DNA of 64,000 bases. It comes from Desulfovibrio sp. TomC. Lineage in GTDB: Bacteria; Desulfobacterota; Desulfovibrionia; Desulfovibrionales; Desulfovibrionaceae. Each line of letters begins with the position of its first letter. Position 1 is the stretch's first letter. The stretch lies in NCBI RefSeq assembly GCF_000801335.2, contig NZ_JSEH01000010.1, positions 124,001-188,000 on the forward strand, given 5' to 3'. Positions 42,296 to 48,961 of this stretch are shown in pieces. Made by a program: the position numbers and the translations under genes. The notes under the pieces were generated by a model. It had not been told where the DNA came from. It saw only the letters and a list, made by a program, of their open reading frames with translations, and searched no databases.

Positions 42296-43450
42296 TTAGC
42301 CGATTGCCGGCTCCCCGCCAGGGAGCAGCACGTAAAACACGGTGCCGTCCGTTGCCTCCGAGGTAAAGCCCACCGTGCCGCCCAGATAGCTCTCGGCGAA
42401 AAGCTTGGTGCCGTAGGTGCCAAGCCCCCGGCCCCGGCCCTTGGTGGAAAAGGTCCGGCGAAAAATCTGCGGCCGCGCTTCTTCGGCCACGACCCCGGCA
42501 TTGTGCACCCAAAACCGCACCTGCCCGTCCTGCCGCCCGCATCCCACGGTCACCGTCCCGCCGGCTGCCGTGGCTTCCAGGGCGTTTTTCTGCATGTTGA
42601 CCAGGATACGGGTCAGAAGCTTGCGATCCGAGGCGAAAAAAACATCGCTGCTGTCCGGCGAAATGACCAGGGTCTTGCCCCGGCAGGACGATTCGCGGCG
42701 CATAAGCGACGTGATGTCGGTTAAAAGCGACAGCGTGCCCATCTTGTTGACCGTCACTTCGTAGTCGCCGCGTTCGGCAAAGCTCAGGTCGCGCTGGGAC
42801 AAGATGAGGTCGGTCACGCGCTCCACTGCGAAAAGCAGCAGATCGAGTTCGGCGTTTCGTGTCCCTTCCTCTTCCTCGCGCATGAGTTCGCAGATGCCCT
42901 GCATCCCGGAAACGAGGTTCATGATGTCATGGTAGAAAATGCGCTCCATGAGATCGAGACGCTTTTCCGCCCGGATGTCGGACATAAGGGCCACATGAAA
43001 GGCCTCGCCGGCATGGCGCAAGGCCCAGATCCAGATCCGGAAATCCAGATTATCCAGGCGCTTGATACCCTGACGACTGATGGAACAATCGCCGGATGCG
43101 CCGTCAGCCCCGGCAAGCGACGCCGCCAACGACTTGGCCGCCCCGCAGGAACGGCACAACTGCGTCGAGCCGCACACCCCGTCCTCGAACTGCGTCCCCA
43201 AACAGGACAAGGCATCACCCAGCCGCAACCCGATGACGTCGGCAACGCCGCGCCCGGTGTCGGACAAGGTGCAAAAGGCGGCATTGGCATAGATAATCTG
43301 ACGCGACGTATTGAAAACAGCTACGCCCATGGGCAACCGGTCAAGGATGCCGACAGCCGGACTTTCCGCAAAAAGCCTGACCTGCCGGTCCAGCGTTGGC
43401 CCCGGCGTCCGCTCGGCCGTAAAAGACTCAAGAAGCCGTGCGTGCACCAT
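42296..43450 (-). CDS. PAS-domain histidine kinase with a cysteine-rich insert
   Basis: 384 residues from the ATG at 43450 (GGAGG, five-base gap). No membrane segment. A PAS domain (about 35-155) contains five cysteines (residues 83, 93, 99, 102, 122) in CGSTQLCRSCGAA and nearby, which could bind a metal or sense redox. The phospho-acceptor is His174 in FYHDIMNLVSG. The ATP-binding domain has the N box (NMQKNALEA) and a glycine box (GRGRGLGTYGTKL). It is a cytoplasmic sensor; no response regulator is adjacent. Confidence 0.88.
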   Translation of the reverse strand: MVHARLLESFTAERTPGPTLDRQVRLFAESPAVGILDRLPMGVAVFNTSRQIIYANAAFCTLSDTGRGVADVIGLRLGDALSCLGTQFEDGVCGSTQLCRSCGAAKSLAASLAGADGASGDCSISRQGIKRLDNLDFRIWIWALRHAGEAFHVALMSDIRAEKRLDLMERIFYHDIMNLVSGMQGICELMREEEEGTRNAELDLLLFAVERVTDLILSQRDLSFAERGDYEVTVNKMGTLSLLTDITSLMRRESSCRGKTLVISPDSSDVFFASDRKLLTRILVNMQKNALEATAAGGTVTVGCGRQDGQVRFWVHNAGVVAEEARPQIFRRTFSTKGRGRGLGTYGTKLFAESYLGGTVGFTSEATDGTVFYVLLPGGEPAIG

Positions 43451-43519: not shown

Positions 43520-43831
43520 TCAGGCCGCAGCCGTGCCCGCTCTCCGCAGCCCGCAGCCCCCTGTCGTCACGGCCAGCCGCGCCCCGCACACCTCGGGCAG
43601 CCCACGCAGTTCCATGACCAGCCGGTCGAGACGGCCGTCGTCGGCCACGGTCACAACGAGCCTTCCCGGCGCAGCCCCTCCGGGTTCGCAGGAAAGACCG
43701 AGCAGTTCGTGAGAACGCCGGGCCAGACAGGCCGCCACATGGCGCAAGGCGGCCAGAGGATCGCGGGTGGCCAGTTCGAGCACGGCCCGGGGAGCAGAAA
43801 TGGGTGTGTGATCGTTACTCGGCGTGGGCAT
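43520..43831 (-). CDS. ilvN: ACT-domain small subunit of acetolactate synthase (IlvN/IlvM type)
   Basis: 103 residues. Its start overlaps the end of ilvB by 17 bases, the position of the regulatory subunit. The sequence has the ACT pattern of IlvN/IlvM: LELATRDPLAALRHVAACLARRSHEL, then GRLVVTVADDGRLDRLVMELRGL. The conserved start of the ACT domain is diverged and the protein is shorter than typical IlvN (about 160), closer in size to IlvM. It probably tunes the large subunit's response to valine. Confidence 0.75.
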   Translation of the reverse strand: MPTPSNDHTPISAPRAVLELATRDPLAALRHVAACLARRSHELLGLSCEPGGAAPGRLVVTVADDGRLDRLVMELRGLPEVCGARLAVTTGGCGLRRAGTAAA

Positions 43832-45494
43832 GGCGTTTCTCCAGGATCATTTCATGGTTGGCGGCGCCGGGCGGCACCATGGGATAGACATGGGCATCGG
43901 GGTCGACGGGCAGACGCACCAGCGCCGGCCCGGGCGCGGCCAGGGCGGCGGCCAGGACCGACCGGACATCCCGGCACGGTTCGAGATCAAGGGCGGCAAT
44001 GCCAAAGGAGGCGGCCAGGGCCACGAAATCCGGCCGGCAGCCAAAGGTCGAGGCGGTGTAGCGGCCGCCGACAAACAGCGCCTGCTGCTGGCGCACCAGC
44101 CCCAGCACGCCGTTGTCCATGAGCAGGATTTTGACCGGCAGGCCAAGCTCGGCCAACGTGGCCAGCTCCTGCACGTTCATCAGAAGCCCGCCGTCGCCGG
44201 TGACGCAGGCAACCGGCCGGCCGGGATCGGCCAGGGCCGCGCCAATGGCCGTCGGCAGGCCAAAGCCCATGGTGCCAAGGCCGCCGGAGGTGAGAAACTT
44301 GCCCGGCAGATGGCACGGCCAGGCCTGGGCGGCGCGCATCTGGTTTTGGCCGACGTCGGTGGCCACGACGGCTTGGGGGCCGAGCATTTCGGCCACGGCC
44401 GCCAGCATCCCGTAGGGGCTTTTCGGATCATCCAGTCCGGGCAGGGCAAAGGGATGCTCCCGGGCCAGGCGTTTTCGAATGGCGGTCCACTCCGGCCGCG
44501 GCCGGGCCGGAACCAGCGGCAAGAGCGCGGTCAGGATCCGCCCGGCATCACCGGCCAGGGGCACATGGGCCTGGCGGTTCTTGTGGTGTTCGGCCGGATC
44601 GATGTCGATGTGGATGACCGACGCCCCTGGACAAAACCGCTTGGCGTCGCCGGTGGCCCGGTCGTCAAAACGCGCCCCGATGGCCACCAGCATATCGCAG
44701 CGGGCCAGCAGATGGTTGGCAGCCGGCGCGCCGTGCATGCCGATCATGCCGGCATGCCTGGGGTGGCCCGGCGGCAGCAGGCCAAGGCCCATGAGCGTTG
44801 TCACCACCGGCGCGTCCAGCATCCCGGCCAGGGCCGCCACCTGCTCCCCGGCCCGGGCCGCACCGCCGCCGCAATACAGGAGCGGCCGCTCACACCGGGC
44901 CAGAAGCGAAGCCGCCCAGGCCAGATCGGCCGGACCGGGGAGCGCCGGACCTGCCGGCCCGTCGGCCGTCGGCCAGTCGTCAAAGGCCGCTTCCTCGGTC
45001 TGCACGTCCCGGGGCACGTCAATGACCACCGGTCCCGGCCGCCCCGCCTCGGCTATGGCAAAGGCCTCGGCCATAAGGCGCGGCAGATCGGCTGCCCGGC
45101 GCACCAGCATGTTGTGTTTGGCGATGGGAATGGTCAGGCCGTAGACGTCCACCTCCTGAAAGGCGTCGGTCCCCAGGAGGGCACGAGGCACCTGGCCTGT
45201 AATACAGACCAGGGGCACGGAATCAGCTTTGGCGTCGGCTATGGCAGTCAGCAGATTCATGACGCCGGGACCGGAGGTGGCCAGACACGCCTGGGCCCGG
45301 CCGGTCACCCGGGCCATGCCCTGGGCGATAAACCCGGCCCCCTGTTCATGGCGGGCCAGAACAATGCGCACCGGCGTCTCGGCAATGGCGTCAAAAAGCG
45401 GCAGGTTGGCCCCGCCAGGGATGCCGGCCACAGCGGTTATGCCGTGGCGGACAAGACTCTGGGCAATGATGCGCGCACCCGTTAACCGTATCAT
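43815..45494 (-). CDS. ilvB: Acetolactate synthase large subunit
   Basis: 559 residues from the ATG at 45494; GGAG precedes it. ThDP-dependent enzyme: the N-terminal PYR domain with GIPGGANLPLFDA and the catalytic Glu in LARHEQGAGFIAQGMAR (about residue 47), a central domain, and the C-terminal PP domain with the ThDP motif GDGGLLMNVQELAT. It condenses pyruvate to acetolactate (valine/leucine) or pyruvate with 2-oxobutyrate (isoleucine). Expression is governed by the leader-peptide attenuator immediately upstream. Confidence 0.93.
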   Translation of the reverse strand: MIRLTGARIIAQSLVRHGITAVAGIPGGANLPLFDAIAETPVRIVLARHEQGAGFIAQGMARVTGRAQACLATSGPGVMNLLTAIADAKADSVPLVCITGQVPRALLGTDAFQEVDVYGLTIPIAKHNMLVRRAADLPRLMAEAFAIAEAGRPGPVVIDVPRDVQTEEAAFDDWPTADGPAGPALPGPADLAWAASLLARCERPLLYCGGGAARAGEQVAALAGMLDAPVVTTLMGLGLLPPGHPRHAGMIGMHGAPAANHLLARCDMLVAIGARFDDRATGDAKRFCPGASVIHIDIDPAEHHKNRQAHVPLAGDAGRILTALLPLVPARPRPEWTAIRKRLAREHPFALPGLDDPKSPYGMLAAVAEMLGPQAVVATDVGQNQMRAAQAWPCHLPGKFLTSGGLGTMGFGLPTAIGAALADPGRPVACVTGDGGLLMNVQELATLAELGLPVKILLMDNGVLGLVRQQQALFVGGRYTASTFGCRPDFVALAASFGIAALDLEPCRDVRSVLAAALAAPGPALVRLPVDPDAHVYPMVPPGAANHEMILEKRHAHAE

Positions 45495-45536
45495 TGAAGG
45501 CTCCGTAAAGCCCCATGGCACGCGGTGGACAGACCC

Positions 45537-45601
45537 AAAAAAAGCCCCCACCGGCGCGCCGGCGGGGGCTGGGTTGTCACAAAAAAAGAAAGGTTCCCCG
45601 C
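45537..45601 (-). terminator. ilv attenuator terminator with antiterminator option
   Basis: A 14-bp GC hairpin (45543-45556 and 45557-45570; one G-U pair in the RNA) is followed on the minus strand by seven T (45537-45543). GCGGGG at 45596-45601, starting on the last base of the leader stop codon, can pair with CCCCGC in the first arm of the hairpin, giving an antiterminator. Termination would leave ilvB unexpressed. Confidence 0.85.
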
Positions 45602-45687
45602 TAAGGCGCCGCGATAACGACGCCTACTACGACCGCGCAAGTCGTCTGCAGAGAGCTGGTTAGCTGGGCGCGGTTGGCAGTCGTCAT
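45601..45687 (-). CDS. ilv leader peptide (attenuator peptide)
   Basis: 28 residues, ATG at 45687, TAG at 45601-45603; an AAGGAAA site lies upstream. The peptide contains the run VVVGVVIA at residues 19-26 (five valines and an isoleucine in eight codons) plus two leucines earlier, as expected of a branched-chain attenuator. The stop codon sits directly before the antiterminator segment, so a ribosome finishing translation would cover it and allow the terminator to form. Confidence 0.85.
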   Translation of the reverse strand: MTTANRAQLTSSLQTTCAVVVGVVIAAP

Positions 45688-45723
45688 GGCAAGGTTTCCT
45701 TGGTGGGGTAAATCGTTGGGTGA

Positions 45724-45752
45724 AATCTACTGCGGGCCGGGCCGCTCGTCAA
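45724..45752 (-). promoter_or_regulatory. ilvBN promoter
   Basis: Minus strand: -35 TTGACG at 45747-45752, 17-bp spacer, -10 TAGATT at 45724-45729. The start near 45717 puts the leader-peptide ATG about 30 bases downstream. Confidence 0.7.
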
Positions 45753-45791
45753 GGGGATGAGAGCGACGGGCGGCAGACGGCGGAAGATGAA

Positions 45792-45819
45792 AGATGGGAG
45801 ATGGGAGATGGGAGATGGG
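45792..45819. repeat. Four tandem copies of AGATGGG
   Basis: Exact head-to-tail heptamers starting at 45792, 45799, 45806 and 45813, in the non-coding gap between cheA and the ilv promoter. Partial copies flank it (AGATGAA before, GGAGGC after). Confidence 0.9.
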
Positions 45820-45828
45820 AGGCAAAAG

Positions 45829-45892
45829 ATCGGGGCGCTGCCCCGAACCCCGCCGGGGGGGAGCATCCCCCCGGCCCCCTGGAGGGTGGGAC
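45829..45892. repeat. GC-rich extragenic palindromic element
   Basis: Interleaved inverted repeats, including CGGGGCGCTGCCCCG (45831-45845) and CCGGGGGGGAGCATCCCCCCGG (45853-45874 region), then CCCCCTGGAGGGTGGG. Elements of this form occur as dispersed repeats in high-GC deltaproteobacteria (general knowledge; copy number here not testable). Confidence 0.5.
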
Positions 45893-45938
45893 ACAACAAG
45901 GGCAAAGCGGGTGGGAGATACGCCGGTTGGCGGGAAAG

Positions 45939-45965
45939 GCCAGGAGGGACAGCATCCCTCCTGGC
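45939..45965 (-). terminator. Terminator of the chemosensory operon
   Basis: Perfect 11-bp inverted repeat (GCCAGGAGGGA at 45939-45949 and its complement at 45955-45965) around a 5-base loop, followed on the minus strand by CTTTCCC. It lies about 27 bases past the cheA stop. The U-tract is weak. Confidence 0.65.
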
Positions 45966-45991
45966 CGGGCCGGGCCACGCCCCGGAAAAGC

Positions 45992-48961
45992 CTACCCCTT
46001 GGAGCGGCCGCCGGGGGTGGACATCATGTAGATTTCGTGCGGATCAAGGATGAGCACCACGGAACCGTCGCCCATGATGGTCGCGCCGGAGATGCCGCGC
46101 ATATCGAATTCGGACAGATAGCTGCCAAGGGGCTTGATCACGATTTCCTGGCGTTCCAGCAGCCGGTCCACGATGAGGCCCAGCCGGCGTTCGTTATCCT
46201 GGAGGATGACGATGGGAGCGATCTCCTGTTTGACCTGGGCCTGGGGCAGTTCCAGGATCTCGGCCAACTCCACGATGCCAAGGACTTCGCCGCGCAGGGT
46301 GACGGCCTTGCGCTTGTTGATCTCGGTCATCCGGTTGACTTCGATCTTGGTGGTTTCGGACACGGAATCAAGCGGCAAGGCGTAGGTCTGGCCGGCAACC
46401 ACCACCATGAGCGCGTCGATGATGGCCAGGGTCAGCGGCAGGGACAGGGTGAACTTGGTGCCCTTGCCCACTTCACTGCTGACGTTGACCGTGCCTTTGA
46501 GATTTTTGATGTTGGTGCGCACGACGTCCATGCCCACCCCCCGGCCCGAGATGTCGGTGATGGTCTCGGCCGAGGAAAAGCCGGGCATGAAGATGATGTC
46601 GATGGCGTCCCGGTCATCCATGGCCTTGGCTTCTTCGGGGCTCATGAGATTTTTTTTGACGGCCACTTCGCGCATCTTGGCCGGATCAATGCCTTTGCCG
46701 TCGTCTTCGATCTCAATGGCCACCGAGTTGCCGCGGTGATAGGCGCGAAGCCAGACGCGCCCGATGGGCGGCTTGCCGGCGGCAATGCGCTCGGCCTCGG
46801 TCTCGATGCCATGGTCCACGGAATTCCGGATGAGGTGGACCAGCGGATCGCCGATGACCTCGACCACGGATTTGTCGAGTTCGGTTTCCTCGCCTTCGGT
46901 GATCAGCGAAACTTCCTTGCCGGATTTGCGCGACAGGTCGCGCACCAGGCGCGGGAAACGGGAAAACACCGTGGACACCGGGACCATGCGCACCTTCATG
47001 ATGGTGTCTTGCAGGTCGTCGGAGATGCGCGCCATGGCGTACGTGGTCTCGGTCAGCTGCTGCCCGATGTGCGCGCCGCTGTCCTTGCCCTCTTCCAGGG
47101 CGCGGGCCAGCATGGTGAAGCGGTTGCGGTTAATGAGCAACTCGCCGATGAGATTCATGAGGTGGTCGAGCTTTTCGTGGTCCACCCGGATGGTGGCGGA
47201 AACCTTGGGTTTGGCCGCCTCGCCCTGGGCCGCAGCCGCAGCCGGCTCGGGTTTGGGCGCAGGTTTGGGAGCCGGCTTCGGTTCCGGCTTGGGCGCCGGC
47301 GCCGGTTTCGGGGGTGTCGCCGGGGCCGGTTGGGCTTCAGGCTTGGGAACCGGGACTGGCTTCGGGGCAGGTTCGGGCTTCGGTTCAGGCTTGGATTCCG
47401 GAGCCGGTTCCGGCGTCGTGGCCGGGGCAGCTTCCGGTTCAGAGACCCGGGCCAGTTCAGGCTGCGGTTCGGGCGCGGCCGGCGGCAGTTCGGGTGCGGC
47501 CTCGGCCGGGGCGGCGGCCGGAGCAGCGCGCAGTTTGCCCAGGGCGGACGCGAGCATGTCGCCGAGGATGGCGCACTCCTGGCGCAGCATGTCGAGTAAC
47601 AGTTCAAAGGGCAGCCCCTGCTTGCGCCCCGTATCCACGAGCCCGGCCGTGCGTTCGGCCTGGACCTTGAGGTCGTTAAGTCCCATGTAGCCCGAGGAAT
47701 TCTGGATGGTGACTAGCGCCCGGTAAAGACCGTCCACCATTTCCTTGGATTCGGAATTCTCATTGAGCCCGGCCAGGGCCTGGGTCATGTAGGTAATCTG
47801 CTGATCGATGGTGGATTCGAAAACGGCCACATCTTCCGGATCGTATCCCGGGGCGGCGGCAGCGCTCTTCGCAGCCTCGGCAACCGGCTTCTGCGGCTCT
47901 GGTTCAGGTTCCGGCTCAGGTTCAGGTTGCGAGGCGGCGGCATCGCCCGGCTCGGCCACATAGCCGTCCTCGCTGGCCTGTTTGAGTCGGGCCACCAGGG
48001 GACGGATGTCCAGCGGCATGGCAATGCTCGTAGCGGCGTCGATGGTGGTGACCAGGGCTTCGACCTGATCGACCACGGCCAGGAGCAGATCGACCATGGC
48101 CGGGGTGGCGACCATCTCGCCCTTGCGCACCCGATTGAGCAGGGTTTCGGCCTCATGGGTCAGGCCGTTTAATTCCTTGTGCCCGATGATGCCGCTGTTG
48201 CCTTTGAGGTTATGAAAATAGCGAAAAATATCGTTGATGCTTTCGTTAGGCCCTTCGCCGGTGGCCTCAAGCTCAAGCAGCGCAGCGTTCAAGCGCTCGA
48301 TAATCTCCCGGGCTTCCTCCATAAAATCGGCCATATGGCCTTCCCCTATGGAGGTCAGCGGATAGGGATCGGGCAGAAACGGCGGCAGGTCTTCGATATT
48401 GATGATCGTTTTGGCCGGCGGGGTCTGGGCCGAAGCCGGGGGCGGCGTTTTGGCCGATTGCGGCGCGACGGCTTCCGGGTCCGGTTCGTCTGACGGGGCG
48501 GGTCCGTCTTCGGGAGGAAAGTCGCCGGACGCGGGCATCGCCGGAGCGTGGGGGACGGCGGCCGGACCGCCTTCCAGCAGCACGGCGATACGGGCGATCA
48601 CCGGGGCGGTGTCGAGATCGCCCTCGACCCCGGTCTGCTCCAGGTTCTCGATCATGGTGCGCAGGATATCCGTGGCCGAGAGGATGACGTCCATGATCTC
48701 GGGATTAACCGGGATATTCCCTTTGCGCAGTTCATCGAGAATGTTCTCGGCTTTGTGGGCCAGCCCGTTGATGGCGTTTAAGCCCAGAAAACCCGAGGCG
48801 CCCTTGAGAGAGTGCATGGGCCGGAAGATATCGTTTAAAAGGCCGAGGTTGCCGGGGTTGCGCTCCAGCTCGAGAAGATTGGGCTCGATGGTCTCGAGGT
48901 GCTCCCGGGCTTCGACAATGAAGTCGGCAAACAGTTCCGGATCCATGAAATCTTGGTTCAT
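45992..48961 (-). CDS. cheA: Chemotaxis histidine kinase CheA with multiple Hpt units
   Basis: 989 residues from the ATG at 48961 (GAGG upstream). Three Hpt-like units are visible: His50 in FRPMHSLKGASGFLG, His250 in FRYFHNLKGNSGIIG, and a third at about 413-429 (YRALVTIQNSSGYMG) in which the histidine is Val417. A proline/alanine/lysine-rich linker (about 480-580) leads to the dimerisation domain (from about 588), the ATPase (N box HLIRNSVDHGIE, then GFSSAETITDISGRGVGMD) and the CheW-like domain at the C terminus. It should phosphorylate CheY and CheB from this operon. Much larger than E. coli CheA (654). Confidence 0.93.
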   Translation of the reverse strand: MNQDFMDPELFADFIVEAREHLETIEPNLLELERNPGNLGLLNDIFRPMHSLKGASGFLGLNAINGLAHKAENILDELRKGNIPVNPEIMDVILSATDILRTMIENLEQTGVEGDLDTAPVIARIAVLLEGGPAAVPHAPAMPASGDFPPEDGPAPSDEPDPEAVAPQSAKTPPPASAQTPPAKTIINIEDLPPFLPDPYPLTSIGEGHMADFMEEAREIIERLNAALLELEATGEGPNESINDIFRYFHNLKGNSGIIGHKELNGLTHEAETLLNRVRKGEMVATPAMVDLLLAVVDQVEALVTTIDAATSIAMPLDIRPLVARLKQASEDGYVAEPGDAAASQPEPEPEPEPEPQKPVAEAAKSAAAAPGYDPEDVAVFESTIDQQITYMTQALAGLNENSESKEMVDGLYRALVTIQNSSGYMGLNDLKVQAERTAGLVDTGRKQGLPFELLLDMLRQECAILGDMLASALGKLRAAPAAAPAEAAPELPPAAPEPQPELARVSEPEAAPATTPEPAPESKPEPKPEPAPKPVPVPKPEAQPAPATPPKPAPAPKPEPKPAPKPAPKPEPAAAAAQGEAAKPKVSATIRVDHEKLDHLMNLIGELLINRNRFTMLARALEEGKDSGAHIGQQLTETTYAMARISDDLQDTIMKVRMVPVSTVFSRFPRLVRDLSRKSGKEVSLITEGEETELDKSVVEVIGDPLVHLIRNSVDHGIETEAERIAAGKPPIGRVWLRAYHRGNSVAIEIEDDGKGIDPAKMREVAVKKNLMSPEEAKAMDDRDAIDIIFMPGFSSAETITDISGRGVGMDVVRTNIKNLKGTVNVSSEVGKGTKFTLSLPLTLAIIDALMVVVAGQTYALPLDSVSETTKIEVNRMTEINKRKAVTLRGEVLGIVELAEILELPQAQVKQEIAPIVILQDNERRLGLIVDRLLERQEIVIKPLGSYLSEFDMRGISGATIMGDGSVVLILDPHEIYMMSTPGGRSKG

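Follow-up and report, generated by a model that had tools for sequence, protein, structure and literature searches.

The region between a cheA-like gene and ilvB in a Solidesulfovibrio-type genome raises the question of how ilvB is controlled there. An earlier note had placed a transcription attenuator with a Val/Ile-rich leader peptide in this region. The locus was analyzed within a 64,000-nucleotide stretch of DNA, henceforth referred to as the window, and was compared with ilvB loci of other genomes.

Organization of the ilvB locus

The candidate attenuator is situated on the minus strand, between the cheA-like gene, which encodes Hpt, H-kinase_dim, HATPase_c and CheW domains, and the following two genes:

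43815-45494, minus strand: ilvB, acetohydroxy acid synthase (AHAS) large subunit; best model NF006016, TIGR00118 passed
43520-43831, minus strand: ilvN-like small subunit; weak IlvN/ACT matches below curated cut-offs

IlvB scored 748 bits against its best-scoring model, NF006016, which is below the cut-off of 870, and 599 against the general AHAS model TIGR00118, which is over the cut-off of 538. The genus assignment follows from an 89% match to the window IlvB in S. aerotolerans, whose locus coincides with that of G097, a genome listed in the same genus. The window genome itself contains five IlvB matches, two of them strong. There is a 17-base overlap between ilvB and the ilvN-like gene, whose matches remained below cut-off (NF006036, 25.8 bits of 128; PF22629, 20.7 of 27). 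An ilvN-like frame was located 3' of ilvB in 59 of 80 loci (tblastn, 1e-3) that were selected by IlvB similarity alone as the best 80 of 582 and are henceforth referred to as the named loci. The candidate attenuator is positioned directly upstream of ilvB and ilvN, as in the ilvBN (ivbL) type, with the weak ilvN matches as a qualification.

A PAS/HATPase histidine kinase gene lies directly 3' of ilvN (42296-43450, minus strand). Comparison of 12 Solidesulfovibrio loci showed a histidine kinase gene after ilvBN in 12/12, whereas none was detected in the 1.5 kb or less of sequence covered past ilvB in 78 named loci outside the genus (tblastn, 1e-3; best 80 of 582). A short tandem repeat, CTCCCAT, occupies 45786-45815, in the interval that separates the cheA-like gene from the ilvB promoter, and a terminator-like hairpin at 45830-45846 (minus strand) perhaps marks the end of the cheA transcript.

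Promoter, leader peptide and valine codons

The promoter, ribosome binding site, 28-codon leader and GC hairpin with seven T described by the earlier note were all present on the minus strand in the claimed order. Read 5' to 3', that order is promoter, AAGGA, leader, terminator, ilvB and ilvN, which is the order of an attenuator. The elements upstream of the terminator are as follows:

45724-45752, minus strand: sigma-70-type promoter TTGACG-17-TAGATT; the 1 promoter-like site found in 45400-46000 (0.1 expected), -35 kept in the genus
45697-45701, minus strand: leader ribosome binding site AAGGA; sequence and genus alignment
45601-45687, minus strand: leader peptide ORF, 28 codons plus TAG, MTTANRAQLTSSLQTTCAVVVGVVIAAP; sequence, and Val-rich leaders in relatives
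45616-45633, minus strand: regulatory run, codons 19-24, GTC GTA GTA GGC GTC GTT (five Val, one Gly); sequence and genus alignment

In an alignment of 12 Solidesulfovibrio loci, the -35 element CTTGAC(G/A) was identical in 12/12 except for its last base, with flanking bases drifting. The -10 element was kept weakly, with just its first TA conserved, and most of the 12 loci have GGAGGA or GGAG as the ribosome binding site. The leader opens with ATG at 45687 and closes with TAG at 45603-45601, and the ATG start codon of ilvB at 45494 is located 106 bases past this stop. As in the ivbL type, the ORF, its ribosome binding site and its conservation delineate a short, putatively translated leader frame with a run of Val codons. 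The run of Val codons 19-24 given by the earlier note stands with one correction: Val occupies codons 19-21, 23 and 24, codon 22 is Gly, and Ile follows at codon 25.

The Val codons GTCGTAGTAGGCGTCG were identical in 12/12 Solidesulfovibrio loci. Conservation of the leader Val/Ile codons in relatives thus held for Val and failed for Ile, which is present at codon 25 in 8/12 genus loci. CGGCGCCTT and nearly the whole terminator stem were also kept in the 12 loci, while the spacer between them drifts, and GCGGGG was kept in all 12, shifted by one base in three. Identity at third codon positions exceeds what the peptide would require, as would fit a paired RNA.

The wider survey covered 149 genomes of the family, 132 of which gave an AHAS match at 1e-100, and the upstream regions of 77 IlvBN-type genes were collected. 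Three more loci of the genus and 12 from a phylum search (395 genomes), two of them from the same family, were added to these and to the named set; three loci were common to two sets. A leader was scored as Val-rich when it contained at least five Val/Ile in 10 codons. Such a leader was found in 74 of 83 family loci, the window included, and the other nine score 4; shuffled upstream regions gave 5.7%. It was likewise found in 10/10 Desulfobacterota loci outside the family (shuffles 3%) and in 78/80 named loci, the best 80 of 582 (shuffles 7%). Upstream of ilvI-type paralogues, a Val-rich leader was found in 1/11 and 0/20 regions (1/31 in all).

Terminator and antiterminator

Five RNA elements were mapped at and beyond the leader end:

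45537-45570, minus strand: intrinsic terminator, 12-bp stem plus T7; terminator search and covariation
45605-45609, minus strand: antiterminator helix A, 5' strand GCGCC (within leader codons 27-28); shortened-transcript folds and covariation
45596-45601, minus strand: antiterminator helix B, 5' strand GCGGGG (last stop-codon base plus five); shortened-transcript folds and covariation
45556-45567, minus strand: shared strand CCCCGCCGGCGC, which forms the antiterminator with the leader end or, along most of its length, the terminator with the 3' arm; shortened-transcript folds and covariation
45600-45627, minus strand: predicted protector/pause hairpin (1:2), codons 21-28 plus stop; free fold

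An intrinsic terminator separates leader and gene, as in the ivbL type. Its hairpin, AGCCCCCGCCGG-CGCG-CCGGTGGGGGCT, spans 45570-45543 and its T run spans 45543-45537. Among the non-redundant leaders measured, leader stop and terminator are separated by a tightly distributed distance, with a median of 29 nt and a 10th-90th percentile range of 23-34. Most bases of the predicted 1:2 hairpin are conserved in the genus.

The GCGGGG at the leader stop, proposed earlier as the antiterminator, is present but too short, and a second helix, GCGCC/GGCGC, was added. The complete antiterminator (GCGCC/GGCGC plus GCGGGG/CCCCGC) is about twice the length of the GCGGGG/CCCCGC reported earlier and leaves most of the leader stop codon in an internal loop. 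When leader ends were compared side by side, GCGCCG|TAG|CGGG was seen opposite the terminator beginning CCCCGCCGGCGC. In many loci the GCGC part falls within the terminator loop, where it is unneeded for the terminator stem and pairs with the leader end.

Folding of shortened transcripts was carried out with the ribosome masked at successive positions. With the ribosome at codons 19, 20, 21, 23 or 24, the antiterminator was predicted in the three longest shortened transcripts at -14 to -23 kcal/mol; in the two longest, the values were -21 to -23 kcal/mol for codons 19, 20, 21 and 23 and about -15 for codon 24. At codon 25, helix B alone remains. A ribosome placed at the stop codon excluded the antiterminator by construction, since it was set to cover the leader end; the antiterminator also folds in shortened transcripts without any ribosome. 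Full-length equilibrium folds did not separate the states: the terminator prevails at every masked ribosome position tried, and the switch must therefore be kinetic.

Covariation of the two helices

The pairing test was entered by 170 of 174 loci (duplicates counted), two being without a leader and two without a hairpin by rule; 76 loci were non-redundant. The mean energy of each leader end with its own arm was -20.7 kcal/mol, compared to -17.9 when swapped and -15.1 when shuffled (76 loci). Own pairing was better than swapped in 64/76 loci (Wilcoxon p 6e-11) and better than shuffled in 73/76, and 36/76 loci singly reached p≤0.05 with the terminator loop bases included. Inclusion of the loop bases was post hoc, following the side-by-side reading of leader ends, and the out-of-sample check is the family-trained model described below. 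A narrower first test, restricted to the 5' strand of the terminator, was significant (p<0.05) at just 11/57, 0/9 and 7/73 loci.

In alignment A1, whose rows are related to one another so that shuffles overstate significance, 78.5% of antiterminator cells were paired compared to 74.7 in shuffles (0/500), with 51 double-change cells compared to 27 (0/500) and a score of 0.262 compared to 0.205 (0/500). The count of pair types was less clear (27 compared to 22; 6/500) and that of pairs with a double change was not striking (10 compared to 8.3; 79/500). Slid versions of the antiterminator reached at most 60.7% paired and scores up to 0.122; the version slid by +2 had 11 double-change pairs and 27 pair types, compared to 10 and 27 for the real antiterminator. 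For the terminator, 92.2% of cells were paired compared to 82.8, with 89 double-change cells compared to 21 and a score of 0.341 compared to 0.158 (0/500 each), and 9 double-change pairs compared to 6.6 (20/500).

Within the family alone (25 of its 35 A1 rows) the antiterminator signal was modest: 88.7% paired compared to 87.7% (50/500), six double-change pairs compared to 3.0 (8/500), and a score reached by 14/500 shuffles. Terminator and antiterminator, which have one strand in common, both covary over 76 non-redundant loci. The pairing of leader end and terminator, which the earlier note had proposed as GCGGGG/CCCCGC, is kept with compensatory changes over these 76 loci, the signal being weak within the family alone. 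As in the ivbL type, the antiterminator and terminator are mutually exclusive, with weaker evidence within the family alone and in the narrow test.

Distribution across phyla

A second RNA model, R2, was trained on 25 Desulfovibrionaceae rows of A1, with no E. coli sequence, and was run on 76 sources, namely E. coli and the 75 named loci outside the family (from the best 80 of 582). A match was counted at up to 200 bases upstream of an ilvB match and on the ilvB strand. R2 matched 67/76 outside sources at E ≤ 3.4e-4, with the E-values of both RNA models (R1 and R2) being rough. The E. coli ilvBN attenuator was matched at 45.2 bits and a similarly rough E-value of 1.2e-9 (L097 4833-4918), a sequence relationship to the E. 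coli element that is expected of an ivbL-type attenuator. Weaker matches were obtained at L145 (0.0013), L189 (0.0064), L163 (0.015), L129 (0.066) and L191 (0.47), and at L183 (0.58) the match was away from the expected hairpin; L121, L141 and L156 had no R2 match at the required position and strand. In the paralogue controls, 0/31 fell below E 0.1, with one at 0.63.

The 67 matches carry ten phylum labels: Pseudomonadota, Thermodesulfobacteriota, Verrucomicrobiota (four loci), Myxococcota, Spirochaetota, Elusimicrobiota, Hydrogenedentota, Auribacterota, Bacillota and Binatota, the last seven being represented by one metagenome-derived record each, for which bins can be wrong. The Bacteroidota label of L133 was left out of this count. 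This locus is titled Chryseobacterium sp. 18061, and its ilvB falls inside Enterobacter, a probable mislabel or contamination. The IlvB tree was a quick LG+G4 tree with long-branch warnings and one outgroup row (a single paralogue), from which L180 was left out (frame of 113 aa); it serves for grouping only.

A single strong match to model R1 was detected in the window genome, at the ilvB attenuator site (5.7e-11), the next being 0.0055. When 297 genomes were scanned with R1 across the phylum, the top 14 matches comprised 13 ilvB sites and one site before an ilvD-like gene; several loci behind the best matches had given rows to R1, and those matches are no independent test. Of 39 loci from the R1 scans, 14 encode IlvB (tblastn), two of them being the window's own site, once per strand. 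Apart from L228, described below, those lacking ilvB were, for that reason, taken as background, and L241 was set aside as what looks on reading like a plain terminator between genes. The same attenuator was seen before the ilvD-like gene of L228 (G228:C182:13980-14079), in another Desulfobacterota genome (8% contamination); that gene encodes a dihydroxy-acid dehydratase (ILVD_EDD, 5e-121) and its leader is Leu/Val-rich.

From these sequence comparisons, the attenuator is apparently homologous wherever it accompanies ilvBN under the ten phylum labels. On balance, we favor a single ancient element, homologous from E. coli through Solidesulfovibrio to Verrucomicrobiota, Spirochaetota and other phyla, that has been passed on together with ilvBN as one unit, both by inheritance and by transfer. 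The reading includes a doubly coded leader 3' end, in which GCGCCG-UAG-CGGG would specify both ..Ala-Pro-stop and the antiterminator strand; such double coding would account for the shared last residues of otherwise dissimilar leader peptides. Some Betaproteobacteria (Azonexus, Dechloromonas and relatives) have a frame that runs on (..APSRTG) and nevertheless retain GCGCCG-UCG-CGG, the pattern expected under selection on the RNA and not on the peptide.

Convergence on a GC-rich solution would account for the cross-phylum match without common descent. GC-rich terminators do score in the background, as in the second match of the window's own genome, the weaker R1 phylum-scan matches among the 39 loci have no ilvB beside them, and repeated emergence has been considered for Firmicutes leaders (PMC2965389). 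The gene tree, rooted on a single paralogue, does not decide between descent and convergence. A model trained on one family, however, finds the element at 67/76 ilvB loci from outside that family, no more than 200 bases upstream and in the correct orientation, and in none of the 31 paralogue controls, which makes convergence the less probable account, if one of some weight, and leaves common ancestry preferred.

Sensed amino acid

The Val/Ile sensing suggested earlier is retained for Val and not for Ile. Over the last 22 codons of 72 leaders, Val accounts for 35%, Leu for 10% and Ile for 3%. By codon content, the sensed amino acid would be mainly valine, the Ile codon being unconserved.

AHAS feeds all three branched-chain pathways, and the same attenuator might instead sense Val, Leu and Ile jointly. 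The Leu share among the 72 leaders and the Leu- and Val-rich leader before ilvD in G228 speak for joint sensing. The window run ahead of the antiterminator, by contrast, has five Val, one Ile and no Leu, that Ile is poorly kept in the genus and rare over the 72 leaders, and a ribosome at codon 25 leaves helix B alone. Joint sensing is thus considered possible but rather unlikely, and valine remains the preferred signal.

Within the regulatory run, GTA makes up 2/5 Val codons. It accounts for 3/249 Val codons in eight window genes (~1%) as opposed to 208/554 in leaders of many genomes (38%). One tRNA-Val each with anticodon TAC, GAC and CAC was found (30 of 47 tRNA places in the genome scanned), and GTA/GTC would therefore report on TAC and GAC, omitting the GTG reader CAC. 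The choice of GTA/GTC in the leader would fit the selective-charging idea (PMC1183508), and pairing of the leader RNA could also dictate it.

Proposed mechanism

Very probably, the locus is a transcription attenuator of the classical, ribosome-mediated type, like that of E. coli ilvBN (ivbL). The attenuation put forward earlier is supported by the conserved leader Val codons in the 12 genus loci and by the compensatory pairing changes over the 76 loci. Its parts are present and conserved, and both exclusive helices covary; leader translation, ribosome stalling, kinetics and the amino-acid response are what we infer from them. RNA polymerase would transcribe the leader with a ribosome close behind. 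With ample Val-tRNA, the ribosome would reach the stop codon and cover the leader end, the newly made CCCCGCCGGCGC would pair with the downstream arm, and transcription would end before ilvB. With scarce Val-tRNA, the ribosome would stall at codons 19-24 and leave GCGCC...GCGGGG free to pair first with GGCGC...CCCCGC, so that the terminator would be blocked and ilvBN transcribed.

The leader ORF might alternatively act on translation of ilvB, through reinitiation or coupling, and not on termination; it has been proposed that leader ORFs increase the translation of a gene close by (PMC4833913). The 106 bases between leader stop and ilvB start, with a 12-bp terminator between, and the covariation of the antiterminator pairing run contrary to a translation-only role, which is judged very improbable. 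That a plain terminator merely adjoins a chance Val-rich ORF, in GC-rich DNA that forms hairpins easily (2 terminator-like sites found in 601 bases, 1.0 expected), is hardly credible given that codons, geometry and alternative pairing are all conserved.

On the attenuator reading, Desulfovibrionaceae sulfate reducers have a leader gene missing from the annotation, together with an ilvBN attenuator that has good computational support. A model that connects E. coli with Verrucomicrobiota and other phyla at the sequence level would allow tests of how old and how mobile a ribosome-mediated attenuator is.

Comparison with known systems

T-box and ppGpp riboswitches located before branched-chain genes control the same pathway by termination. 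With Rfam 15 at gathering score, the sole match in the window was a tRNA, with none at the ilvB leader, and across 20 sources, E. coli included, no family matched this leader; membership of the T-box or another Rfam cis-regulator family was accordingly not found in the window or these sources. Loose thresholds returned weak matches only (best E 0.84), most of which fell on the terminator hairpin, and these were rejected. Since no Rfam 15 family matches it in the 20 sources, the attenuator could become an RNA family.

A term search of Rodionov 2004 on delta-proteobacteria returned neither 'ilv' nor 'leader peptide' in the text. No paper on an ilvB attenuator in Desulfovibrio was among the literature matches listed; prior mention is possible, with Vitreschak 2004 and Lopatovskaya 2010 known from citations. 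The kind of attenuator is already known, and the breadth of one homologous element across phyla may be the new part.

Actinobacteria ilvB leaders, including the Corynebacterium ilvB-II motif, have been described (PMC1262725, PMC10272879). Like the window, they have a branched-chain-rich leader and a terminator before ilvB, and ilvB-II also has an antiterminator; the Corynebacterium operon is ilvBNC, unlike the window, and is set apart by description. In Streptomyces coelicolor, regulation was unaffected when codons of an attenuator-like ilvB leader were changed (PMC1262725), which by analogy would count against the attenuator reading. The ilvB-OMG motif, with 41 representatives in various phyla in a 2023 paper (PMC10272879), resembles the window in that, across several phyla, ilvB is preceded by a uORF with many branched-chain codons, and differs in being also threonine-codon-rich, as compared by description.

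Attenuation of E. coli ilvBN is named as established (PMC1183508, PMC10272879). In common with the window, it has an ilvB-ilvN operon, a Val-rich leader ending ..AP* and a terminator with CCCCGCCGGCGC, and its R2 match (L097 4833-4918) overlaps the end of ivbL and lies before ilvB. The window leader is 28 codons with five Val, compared to 32 codons with nine Val for ivbL, and uses GTA codons, unlike ivbL. The window operon is followed by a sensor kinase gene, whereas E. coli ilvBN is followed by uhp genes.
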